Source: a virus. Taken from it: a stretch of DNA of 41,523 nt. Location of the stretch: positions 1-41,523 of IMG/VR virus record IMGVR_UViG_3300028024_000015. One strand, written 5' to 3'. Each line of letters begins with the position of its first letter. The stretch's first letter is position 1. A program made the position numbers and the translations under genes. Below the pieces are notes generated by a model, which was not told where the DNA came from, searched no databases, and was given only the letters and a program-made list of their open reading frames with translations. Below are positions 37,131-39,710 of the stretch, one piece after another.

Positions 37131-37358
37131 TCAGTGTCCGCAAGGTACGTTGCCATCGTCATCGGCGCTACGTCCGCATTGGATGCACGTGAGTGGATTC
37201 CCACCTTGATATAGGCCGGCGCGCATACGGACGCCAGCAGCGCGCAAATCCTGCCCGACGACGTTGATCTGATCGAAGATATATTCGCTAAACGGACGTG
37301 CGCCTAGGCGCGAACGCTTGGGCCATGCCGGGATAGGGCTGTCGGGGAAATAATTCAT
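37131..37358 (-). CDS. Small protein with C-terminal Cys motif
   Basis: This 75-aa protein has AAGGAG before the ATG at 37358, which overlaps the stop of the Ea22-like gene (ATGA). It reads MNYFPDSPIPAWPKRSRLGARPFSEYIFDQINVVGQDLRAAGVRMRAGLYQGG and ends TCIQCGRSADDDGNVPCGH. The ending provides a C-x2-C and a further C/H for zinc. The function is unknown. Confidence 0.65.
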   Translation of the reverse strand: MNYFPDSPIPAWPKRSRLGARPFSEYIFDQINVVGQDLRAAGVRMRAGLYQGGNPLTCIQCGRSADDDGNVPCGH

Positions 37359-37870
37359 GTTTGCTCCTTGCGCGCGGCATCAATGGCTGCGAGTGCGTGC
37401 GTAACCAGCATCCCAGTCGGATTGAACTCGTCGCTCGTTCCGGCGAACATTTCCCGGTCGTGGCGAATGGCGCTCTCAAGTTCCAATAGCGCACCCATCA
37501 GACCATAGGCGCGAACCCGCTCAACCGGAATATCGCCGCGCTCAATGAGAAAGCGGGCACGCGATACCTGGTTGTCGTGGTTGGCCTGCCAGTGGTTGCG
37601 CTCTACGGTCAGAGCCGATGCATGCTCGACGGCTTCTTGCCAGCGTCTCTTCCAGTCGGCGCTATCCTCCCGCAGCGCCCGCACCTCAGCGATAAGGGCG
37701 AGGATTGCGGCGGGGTCAATCGCTGATAGCGAGCGCTTTTCGTAGTCACGATCGCTCACATGCGTCGGCTCGCCGTGGGATATTTCCCAATCCTCCGGGT
37801 AGTGCTTCGAACGGTATTGCCACAGATCAGGCGCCTTCGCCAGCGCTTCCAATTCGTCGATGTCGATCAT
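37355..37870 (-). CDS. Ea22/Ead-like coiled-coil protein
   Basis: This 171-aa protein (AAGGAG before the ATG) starts MIDIDELEALAKAPDLWQY. It has the D-P-A-A-I-L-A-L-I-A-E-V-R-A-L-R-E heptad block typical of phage Ead/Ea22 proteins (about 52-68). A coiled coil with W residues (WKRRWQEAVEHASALTVERNHWQANHDNQV) and the end GMLVTHALAAIDAARKEQ follow. The role in phage is unknown. Its start overlaps the stop of the frame overprinted on the methyltransferase (ATGA), a sign that that frame is translated. Confidence 0.75.
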   Translation of the reverse strand: MIDIDELEALAKAPDLWQYRSKHYPEDWEISHGEPTHVSDRDYEKRSLSAIDPAAILALIAEVRALREDSADWKRRWQEAVEHASALTVERNHWQANHDNQVSRARFLIERGDIPVERVRAYGLMGALLELESAIRHDREMFAGTSDEFNPTGMLVTHALAAIDAARKEQT

Positions 37871-38697
37871 TTCGTCTCCTTATCCTCGTGAGAGTAGGGT
37901 GAATGCTGCTGCAGCCACTCTTGATACTTGCCCGTTTCCAAGGCCTTTAAGTCTGTGTGACCTATAGGCCACCCCATGAGCCATTCGACCCAATCCGGAT
38001 TCAGCGGGCCACTCTCCGTAGCGAAAACGAAGTGGTCCAACCGGTCGTAGGTTCGGTCTCGTCCATCTTTGCGGGTCAGTGCTTTGATGGACGACGCCTT
38101 GTGCATGGATGCCGTTGGCGTCGGAATACTGCGCTTCTTCACCGCGGTCGCCAGTCCGTCGCCACTCGATTTGCTCGCACCCTTCCTGTTGTGATTCCCA
38201 CAGACGGTTGGAGTGGGCCAGAATCCAGATCCTTTCTCGCTCGTGATCGGCGCCGCAATCGCCCGCGGAAAGCACTCCCCATTCCGCATGGAACCCCATC
38301 TCGGCCAGGTCTCCAAGTACTCGTCCGAGTCCTCTAGAAGTGAGCATTGGGCTGTTTTCCACGAAGACGATTCGCGGTCGTACTTCGCGAACGATCCGAG
38401 CCATTTCGACCCAGAGACCGCTTCGCGCGCCTTCGAGACCGGCGCCGTTTCCAGCGGCACTGATGTCCTGACAGGGAAATCCGCCAGCCACGACATCAAC
38501 AACTCCTCGCCAAGGTCGTCCGTCGAAAGTCCGAACGTCATTCCAAATCGGGAACGGCGGCATGGTTCCGTCGTTTTGCCGCGCAACGAGGACGGCTTGG
38601 GCGTAGGGATCAAATTCAACGGCGCAAACGCATCGATGCCCGAGCAACTGACCTGCGAGAATTCCTCCACCATGGCCCGCGAAAAGATGAAGCTCAT
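37867..38697 (-). CDS. Overprinted gene: phage protein sharing DNA with the C5 methyltransferase
   Basis: This 276-aa protein is read in another frame across essentially the whole methyltransferase gene. Its own hallmark segments are SWLADFPVRTSVPLE (69-83), YLETWPRWGSMRNG (127-140), FWPTPT (159-164) and LNPDWVEWLMGWPIGHTDLKAL (232-252). Protein patterns like these are familiar from annotated phage genomes, though function is unassigned. Its ATG lies 4 bp after the methyltransferase TTG behind the same GGAGGT, at the better spacing (7 bp). Its stop forms ATGA with the next gene. These features argue for real translation. Confirmation needs codon-constraint or proteomic evidence. Confidence 0.75.
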   Translation of the reverse strand: MSFIFSRAMVEEFSQVSCSGIDAFAPLNLIPTPKPSSLRGKTTEPCRRSRFGMTFGLSTDDLGEELLMSWLADFPVRTSVPLETAPVSKAREAVSGSKWLGSFAKYDRESSSWKTAQCSLLEDSDEYLETWPRWGSMRNGECFPRAIAAPITSEKGSGFWPTPTVCGNHNRKGASKSSGDGLATAVKKRSIPTPTASMHKASSIKALTRKDGRDRTYDRLDHFVFATESGPLNPDWVEWLMGWPIGHTDLKALETGKYQEWLQQHSPYSHEDKETK

Positions 38698-38701
38698 TCA
38701 A
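37880..38701 (-). CDS. DNA cytosine-C5 methyltransferase (Dcm-type)
   Basis: This 273-aa enzyme methylates cytosine C5 using S-adenosylmethionine, probably to protect phage DNA from restriction. Motif I is LFAGHGGGI (6-14), motif IV GGFPCQ with catalytic C77, motif VI VENSP (114-118), motif VIII HERERIW (153-159), and motif X RLKGLGNGQVSRVAAAAF near the end. The start is a TTG at 38701 (MNELHLFAGHGGG is the usual opening), and it overlaps the upstream stop as TTGA. The target-recognition region (about 165-225) is short. The DNA also encodes a second protein (37867-38697). Confidence 0.92.
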   Translation of the reverse strand: MNELHLFAGHGGGILAGQLLGHRCVCAVEFDPYAQAVLVARQNDGTMPPFPIWNDVRTFDGRPWRGVVDVVAGGFPCQDISAAGNGAGLEGARSGLWVEMARIVREVRPRIVFVENSPMLTSRGLGRVLGDLAEMGFHAEWGVLSAGDCGADHERERIWILAHSNRLWESQQEGCEQIEWRRTGDRGEEAQYSDANGIHAQGVVHQSTDPQRWTRPNLRPVGPLRFRYGEWPAESGLGRMAHGVAYRSHRLKGLGNGQVSRVAAAAFTLLSRG

Positions 38702-39165
38702 GCGACCTCCAATTCTTGTTGTTCAACCAATCCCATTTTCCGGGCGCGTACCGGCTCCCACTCTGCGTACGCGCGATCCCAGATGTCGAATTTATTCTCT
38801 TTCGGCGCCCCAGACTGGTCGATATATCTGTGACAGAAGACGCAACCTGGCACGGTATATCGATGGTCCGCCTTGATACCCATCCCCTTCCCATGCACCG
38901 CCTGATTGGAGTGGCACGGCACGACCGAGACATCGAATTCAAGGCGCCAGCACACGTCAGACACTTGGAGAAAACACCTTTCCCCTCTGCAAGCCGCCAG
39001 ATACTTCGCCCCTTCCTCGGCGGTCGGCCGCTTCGCCTTCCGCTTGAGACCGACTCTCTTCTTCGCCTCCTGGTTGCGCTCGAATTGCTGGCGGGTGGGC
39101 GAGAAGGGTGAGCCTTTGCGGGAGAAGGGCGAGCGCTGCATGGGTTTTTTGCGGGTGAGGGTCAT
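38698..39165 (-). CDS. YbcO-like HNH nuclease (DUF1364 type)
   Basis: This 155-aa protein starts at the ATG at 39165, with GGAGG 8 bp upstream, and overlaps the homing gene by 4 bp (ATGA); a GTG five codons earlier is possible. A basic N-terminal linker (TRKKPMQRSPFSRKGSPFSPTRQQFERNQEAKKRVGLKRKAK) is followed by CRGERCFLQVSDVCW. VVPCHSNQAVHGKGMGIKADHRYTVPGCVFCHRYIDQSG then supplies the Cys4-type zinc site and H-N-H residues of YbcO-like phage nucleases. Its position in the nin region supports a recombination or DNA-processing role. Its stop lies inside the TTGAATG that starts the next two genes. Confidence 0.78.
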   Translation of the reverse strand: MTLTRKKPMQRSPFSRKGSPFSPTRQQFERNQEAKKRVGLKRKAKRPTAEEGAKYLAACRGERCFLQVSDVCWRLEFDVSVVPCHSNQAVHGKGMGIKADHRYTVPGCVFCHRYIDQSGAPKENKFDIWDRAYAEWEPVRARKMGLVEQQELEVA

Positions 39166-39710
39166 GCGACATGCCTCCACGTTGTGCCATTCCGAGCGCG
39201 CCGCACCATCTGCTCGGAGATGCCCAACTCCCCCGCTAATTCATGGTTGCTCTTTTCGCTGTCCCTGATTAACCTGACTTGAGACTCGGTCATCTTGGAA
39301 CTCGGATGCGCATCGCCTCTAATGCGCGTGCCATGAATATCCATGTCTTTCAGATTGCCGTTGCGGGTATCCCATCGAAGGTTATCCAGACGGTTATCTG
39401 CTCTATTGCCGTTGTTATGGCAGGAATCCAAATCACGCTCATTGATTGCCGGGCGAAACACCTGGAGCATGGCGCGATTAACGCATAACGTCTTACAGCG
39501 ACCTTTGTCGTGCAGAGTCACGGTCTGATACCCGTCATGCAGTCTCAATGCCTTTACCCGCCCCTTGGTGACTCTCGTTGATCCTAGGGGGCCATTCGTG
39601 ACTCGATCAAGTGAGCGGATTCGGCCATGAGTAGAAACCTCATAAAGACCACACCACCCGACTACCGGCCTCCAGATTTCAGTATCCAATTCCAACCCCC
39701 ATCGCTTCAT
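39162..39710 (-). CDS. NUMOD4-HNH homing endonuclease
   Basis: This 182-aa protein is taken from the ATG at 39710. The N-terminal EIWRPVVGWCGLYEVSTHGRIRSLDR is a NUMOD4 DNA-binding motif. RLHDGYQTVTLHDKGRCKTLCVNRAML, then DLDSCHNNGNRADNRLDNLRW, is the HNH core. The C-terminal MTESQVRLIRDSEKSNHELAGELGISEQMVRRARNGTTW is a helix-turn-helix. This is the layout of free-standing homing nucleases. It lies between ninB and the YbcO-like gene. Its 5' end overlaps the last 32 bp of ninB, and the exact start is uncertain (TTG codons follow GGGGG a few bases later). Confidence 0.88.
   Translation of the reverse strand: MKRWGLELDTEIWRPVVGWCGLYEVSTHGRIRSLDRVTNGPLGSTRVTKGRVKALRLHDGYQTVTLHDKGRCKTLCVNRAMLQVFRPAINERDLDSCHNNGNRADNRLDNLRWDTRNGNLKDMDIHGTRIRGDAHPSSKMTESQVRLIRDSEKSNHELAGELGISEQMVRRARNGTTWRHVA

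Follow-up and report, generated by a model that had tools for sequence, protein, structure and literature searches.

Lee, Kam and Shaw are said to have described in 1995 that the beta chain of the bacterial methyltransferase M.EcoHK31I is read in another frame inside the alpha gene. PMC3404938 assigns motifs I-VIII and X of this enzyme (YGGCCR) to the large chain and motif IX to the small chain, with the target-recognition domain (TRD) predicted in the large one. The beta chain of M.AquI carries motif X as well, as it does in Andrew gp44, Zaka gp90, Dylan gp6 and the contig L147. Actinophage enzymes such as Gordonia phage Ailee gp4 have everything in one frame and one chain, in the order motifs I-VIII, PTP-type variable stretch, EWMMxxPxGWVTD (motif IX) and LKAIGNGV (motif X). 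Escherichia phage K1H (ORF29/ORF28, 'Mte8-like') and Paenibacillus phage Bloom (Bloom_56/57) have a same-strand ORF of PHROG 1008 nested inside a cytosine-5 (C5) methyltransferase gene; in the records and papers found, these pairs are annotated without explanation or link to split enzymes. Literature searches for dual coding of phage methyltransferases returned nothing.

Here, we describe a pair of ORFs, F1 (alpha) and F2 (beta), that is present as a single copy in the window, the 41,523-base IMG/VR virus record IMGVR_UViG_3300028024_000015. Like M.EcoHK31I, with which it was compared by description, the pair appears to have a two-chain division, with motifs I-VIII and X in F1 and motif IX in F2, read in the other frame. 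It differs in the TRD, which selection and homology point to in beta and which is predicted in the large chain there, and in its beta chain, which starts 4 nt after alpha, spans the whole gene and is not smaller (276 versus 273 amino acids). From M.AquI it differs by having motif X in alpha (F1) and by the full overlap of the two genes; a beta chain with both IX and X is seen in L147, Andrew, Zaka and Dylan. The overlap in K1H and Bloom is 230-235 amino acids, compared to the whole gene in the window. The one-chain actinophage enzymes share the order of conserved regions with the window pair.

Results

Organization of the locus

The features are given below; all are on the minus strand.

38698..39180, minus: upstream HNH endonuclease-like gene (phrog_131, 2e-27)
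38705..38710, minus: GGAGGT, Shine-Dalgarno sequence common to both starts (sequence; spacing in relatives)
37880..38701, minus: F1 (alpha), catalytic chain of a C5 DNA methyltransferase, motifs I-VIII and X (ORF, TTG start, 273 amino acids)
38465..38485, minus: F1 motif IV, GGFPCQD, residues 73-79 (sequence; alignment A2)
38015..38206, minus: F1 residues 166-229, linker between motifs VIII and X, neutral; the same DNA is the constrained, putative TRD stretch of F2 (two-frame omega; pLDDT)
37925..37954, minus: F1 motif X, RLKGLGNGQV, residues 250-259 (invariant residues; pLDDT)
37867..38697, minus: F2 (beta), nested ORF in the +1 frame of F1, probable TRD and motif IX half (ORF, ATG start, 276 amino acids)
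38002..38223, minus: WPTP-type stretch of F2 (residues 159-232); its homologue in one-chain enzymes is the TRD segment that separates motif VIII from motif X (profile A5)
37948..38001, minus: F2 residues 233-250, NPDWVEWLMGWPIGHTDL, putative equivalent of motif IX (conservation in 150 relatives; actinophage methyltransferases)
37355..37870, minus: downstream gene, function not known (ORF; phrog_7582, 2.6e-15)

The original prediction, made from the sequence, was that two genes are overprinted here over 0.8 kb, a Dcm-type methyltransferase in frame 1 and a recurring phage protein in frame 2. Its description of the locus was accurate. One GGAGGT precedes the TTG of F1 and the ATG of F2, 4 nt apart in TTGAATG, which also contains the TGA of the HNH gene (38700-38698); the F2 stop and the ATG of the downstream gene overlap as ATGA (37870-37867); and the GGFPCQDIS core of F1 is read in F2 as ADFPVRTSVPL.

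From the end of the Shine-Dalgarno sequence in its AGGAGG register, the distance is 4 nt to the TTG of F1 and 8 nt to the ATG of F2, and this 4/8 nt spacing is also the mode across relatives. The first two bases of the F2 ATG are supplied by the second codon of F1, which encodes Asn. Among 202 distinct loci this codon is AAT in 190 and AAC in none, although AAC makes up 62% of the other Asn codons in the same F1 genes. Thus, the F2 ATG is preserved by synonymous codon choice in F1; it is the start in 196 of the 202 loci. The equivalent F1 start position lacks ATG, GTG or TTG in 16 of those loci, nearly all of which have an in-frame F1 start further upstream.

The F1/F2 gene (window 37876-38715) is 98% identical to positions 1665-2504 of contig L001, whereas the flanks are at most 69% identical, indicating that the pair moves as a sharply bounded cassette.

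Frame 2 is open beyond chance

Relatives were collected in three ways, by searching viral contigs with F2, viral contigs with F1, and bacterial genomes with F2 (342 matches). As null model, synonymous codons were shuffled within F1, leaving protein and codon usage unchanged. Frame 2 of the window stayed open in 1.2% of the shuffles, and 91 of 92 relatives are open in frame 2 where 1.4 were expected; the third frame of the relatives has about 15 stops per gene. Relatives with low GC content (gene GC 0.43-0.50; L106, L107, L108, L111, L114 and L279) are open as well, with P(open) ≤0.0006 for each; the shuffles of L282 and L284 had incorrect F2 borders and are left out. Stop counts in the viral and bacterial sets chosen by F2 favour F2, because those loci were selected by it; the set chosen by F1 and the two-frame test described below are free of that bias. 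Stops in frame 2, which would have spoken against dual coding, are rare: when loci were chosen with nothing but the F1 profile, 76 of the 80 had both ORFs at full length.

Full-length pairs were found in Pseudomonas, Acinetobacter, Halomonas, Burkholderia, Verrucomicrobiota and others, in phages of Acinetobacter, Salmonella, Microcystis, Vibrio and Klebsiella, and on a Leptospira plasmid. A Methanomethylovorans plasmid carries a short form.

Both frames are under purifying selection

For a two-frame dN/dS analysis of 33 independent pairs, each possible change was classed as synonymous or nonsynonymous in each frame. Omega of F2 was 0.36 (0.29-0.43) at changes nonsynonymous in F1 (NN/NS) and 0.27 at changes synonymous in F1 (SN/SS); for F1, the same two measures gave 0.34 and 0.26. 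The corresponding values were 2.2 and 0.74 for the third frame of the pairs and 1.06 and 0.98 for a +1 pseudo-frame of 30 flanking genes. As omega is low in both frames compared to these controls, both are under purifying selection. The distribution of substitutions over F1 codon positions 1/2/3 in close pairs was 0.45/0.16/0.39, versus 0.22/0.15/0.63 in 30 flanking genes of such pairs. F2 is therefore a real second gene with its own purifying selection and no chance ORF, the latter being ruled out by the synonymous-shuffle, start-codon and two-frame tests. In this respect the original prediction held: the dual coding is genuine, and selection on F2 independent of F1 was detected in the 33 pairs, against the flanking-gene control, as well as in the 56 pairs used next.

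The hundreds of existing copies make it possible to follow selection region by region in either frame and to see directly where constraint passes from one to the other. This was done with 56 pairs, the borders being given in F1 numbering of the window. Over F1 residues 1-165 (motifs I-VIII), omega of F1 was 0.19-0.30. Over residues 166-229, the site of the TRD in one-chain enzymes, F1 was neutral (omega 1.22, 1.07-1.38), whereas F2 was constrained in the same DNA (0.45, 0.34-0.58). After residue 230 both were constrained (F1 0.58, F2 0.56). The N-terminal 150 amino acids of F2 are weakly constrained by one of the two measures (NN/NS 0.54-0.93), and upstream of the point at which the constraint switches frame SN/SS of F2 was about 0.3 in every region. 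Constraint thus changes frame along the gene: it is on F1 over motifs I-VIII, on F2 over the putative TRD stretch and on both at the end.

F1 is a catalytic chain with motif X

The assignment of frame 1 to the C5 methyltransferases was borne out by a match to PF00145 (9.7e-33), which covers residues 3-168 only; PDB profiles, like Pfam, match F1 only up to about residue 168. The match to phrog_363 had an E-value of 5.5e-68. F1 has motifs I-VIII, including PCQ, EN and RxR. G73, G74, F75, P76, C77 and D79 are invariant in alignment A2 and Q78 nearly so; E115, N116, R155 and R157 are invariant too, as are R250, G255, N256, G257 and Q258 of motif X. The AlphaFold model of F1 is confident over residues 1-171, falls below a pLDDT of 50 over residues 172-255 and has a C-terminal motif X helix with a pLDDT of about 93; the best Foldseek matches of the core are M.HhaI and M.HaeIII. 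A TRD and motif IX were not found in the F1 chain, in which Pfam ends at 168, residues 166-229 are neutral and residues 172-255 are unmodelled. The neutrality of 166-229 together with the low pLDDT of 172-255 argues that F1 consists of a catalytic domain and motif X with an unconserved tether in between.

The C-terminal half of F2 corresponds to the segment between motifs VIII and X

F2 is a member of a recurring phage protein family, as had been proposed, and matches phrog_1008 ('DNA methyltransferase') over residues 58-223 (2.2e-29); other beta chains match PHROG 1008 with 5e-28 to 9e-86. F2 had no match among Pfam, NCBIfam and PDB sequence families. Its most conserved part is LNPxWVEWLMGWPxGWTD, downstream of WPTP-type stretches, and within it LNPxWVEWLMGWP is near-invariant in 150 relatives.

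Positions 159-247 of the F2 profile A5 match the enzymes of Gordonia phage Ailee and Mycobacterium phage Leperchaun, between motifs VIII and X and in one frame. In one-chain enzymes these matches fall exactly between the motif VIII and motif X matches of the F1 profile. In Ailee gp4, motif VIII is followed, without a change of frame, by PTP stretches, AFAEWMMMLPAGWVTD and QQLKAIGNGV, and NPDWVEWLMGWPIGHTDL of F2 corresponds to xxFxEWMMGxPxGWVTD, which precedes motif X in actinophage methyltransferases. We take xxxEWMMGxP to be motif IX, also from its place before motif X and from what is known of the C5 family (motif IX of the LxPRECARxxGYP type).

In favour of the original prediction, homologues of the C-terminal half of F2 that are not overprinted exist as well. 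In the split pairs Zaka gp91/gp90, Andrew gp43/gp44 and Dylan gp7/gp6 the first ORF ends after motif VIII; the second ORF overlaps it in another frame and has TRD, IX and X in one frame. Each of these second ORFs is hit by the F2 profile, Dylan gp6 with 7e-26, Andrew gp44 with 5e-18 and Zaka gp90 with 2e-17, and PHROG 1008 groups F2 with all of them. On the one-chain PHROG 116, F1 maps to positions 211-378 and the second ORFs map to 381-495. In L147 (2497-3667, a Spirochaetia contig), F1 terminates behind motif VIII, and from there on stops crowd its frame; F2 is open for 389 amino acids and runs on into motif X. Taken together, the one-chain, split-pair and L147 settings and the PHROG mapping indicate that F2 carries TRD and motif IX. 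Similarity between the F1 and F2 profiles, as an artefact of their shared sequence, was looked for and not detected; the alignment of distant F2 sequences (A3) was too divergent to serve as scan profile.

The AlphaFold model of F2 alone had a mean pLDDT of 59 and a pTM of 0.30. It gave no useful match to PDB folds and matched a viral structure library at low TM-score only. A poor model of F2 on its own might be expected of half a domain. The N-terminal 150 amino acids of F2 have no counterpart in ordinary methyltransferases.

L147 looks like a natural M.AquI-like split form of the same family, in which the second half of F1 has decayed. In PHROG, the beta family is labelled 'DNA methyltransferase' or its C-terminal pieces are left as unknown (phrog_1008, phrog_26627, phrog_35493), and this labelling hides the two-chain arrangement.

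Discussion

The conserved regions are divided between two constrained frames. Because F2 seems to carry the TRD and motif IX that F1 is without, F1 (alpha: I-VIII, X) and the nested F2 (beta: TRD, IX) very probably are the two chains of one split cytosine-5 methyltransferase and not an unrelated pair, a relation that the original prediction missed. Two independent lines, selection and homology, point to beta as the carrier of the TRD. F1 would supply the AdoMet-binding and catalytic motifs I-VIII and motif X; the target-recognition region and motif IX would come from F2, whose start in the +1 frame is 4 nt further on. Both chains would be translated behind the HNH gene from one mRNA, with a single Shine-Dalgarno sequence serving the two starts in TTGAATG, and would associate into one heterodimeric enzyme. 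Such an enzyme would methylate the DNA of the phage itself, presumably against host restriction; its activity, target sequence and protective role are presumed.

Seven relatives run counter to this (L062, L121, L128, L134, L181, L184 and L191): they have a single in-frame stop in F1 and an intact F2. In L062, L121 and L184, and also in L147, the F1 stop is just after motif VIII. The two-chain model explains the seven stops only as decay or as re-initiation, in which alpha may end early and motif X be translated from a new start.

One alternative, which is very unlikely, is that the methyltransferase is complete and F2, overprinted on it by chance, is a phage protein in its own right, such as a regulatory or anti-restriction factor. 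That F2 alone has no Pfam match and that its N-terminal half is unlike anything known would fit such a protein, but F1 is without a conserved TRD or motif IX and evolves neutrally in that region, and the C-terminal half of F2 is homologous to exactly the segment missing from F1. Moreover, F2 was seen only with an F1-type catalytic frame beside or under it.

Also very unlikely is a programmed +1 frameshift near the end of motif VIII that fuses the catalytic part of F1 to the TRD and motif IX of F2 in a single working chain. The functional switch of frame at about F1 residue 165 is what it would predict, and some phage methyltransferases are indeed annotated as joined or broken (Ailee gp4, in two pieces; Llama gp74/75). 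A fusion, however, needs neither the F2 ATG, which is kept in 196 of 202 loci by way of an Asn codon that is only AAT, nor a Shine-Dalgarno sequence 8 nt from it, nor the constraint on F2 upstream of the junction that SN/SS (about 0.3) reveals everywhere; and it would be without motif X, which is in frame 1. Finally, the idea that frame 2 codes for nothing and only mirrors the codons and amino-acid motifs used in F1, in line with the many conserved F2 peptides opposite conserved F1 motifs (FPVRTS opposite GGFPCQDIS), is already refuted by the synonymous-shuffle null (91 of 92 open versus 1.4), the F1 codon-position pattern (0.45/0.16/0.39 versus 0.22/0.15/0.63 in flanking genes), the start codon (AAT 190, AAC 0), the constraint on F2 where F1 is neutral and the open low-GC relatives.

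The split enzyme probably arose from a one-chain enzyme. After a frameshift near motif VIII, the C-terminal half would have been read in another frame from a start within the first gene, the situation seen in Zaka and Andrew. The nested form would have followed when the frame shifted again ahead of motif X while frame 1 stayed open across the tether. Distant relatives lack the first ~60 residues of F2, so the overlap may have been extended upstream at a later stage, to where F2 starts today.

The family of the window is widespread and unrecognised, and of a known kind by analogy with M.EcoHK31I, which has the same division of motifs. New here are the breadth, the near-complete overlap and the evidence for a TRD in beta; the placement of the TRD and the full-length overlap may set the family apart as a variant of the M.EcoHK31I arrangement. 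We consider it likely that C5 methyltransferases of this type form a large and old class, so far unrecognised, which extends over phages, bacteria and at least one archaeal plasmid, with the catalytic and recognition halves in two frames of the same DNA and with frame 1 freed from selection where the recognition domain is in frame 2, there being only a tether to motif X. If this is true, many genes annotated as complete 'Dcm' are half enzymes whose recognition chain is absent from the annotation, and an inactive half is what one would obtain by cloning or modelling only the annotated ORF of such a phage or prophage methyltransferase. Except in small viruses, it is rare for two genes to overlap over their full length on one strand and for selection to have been measured in both. 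For targeted methylation, a natural split methyltransferase has already served as scaffold (PMC3439449), and the window family would add many more candidates.

Rearranged relatives were also seen. In L109 (1305-2064; Mycobacterium phage Llama gp74/gp75 and sister phages) an indel has shifted the frames, and one ORF now runs from the first part of F2 into the second part of F1. The methyltransferase gene of Gordonia phage Ailee, annotated as two joined pieces, is interrupted by a gene for an HNH endonuclease (L286, 177-575); the insertion is intron-like. At about 578-880 of L286, a second F2-like reading (SETLPTSGMTRNG...LPTPRATDGTKGG) runs in the third frame over the one-chain enzyme of Ailee, as if the PTP modules had switched frame more than once.
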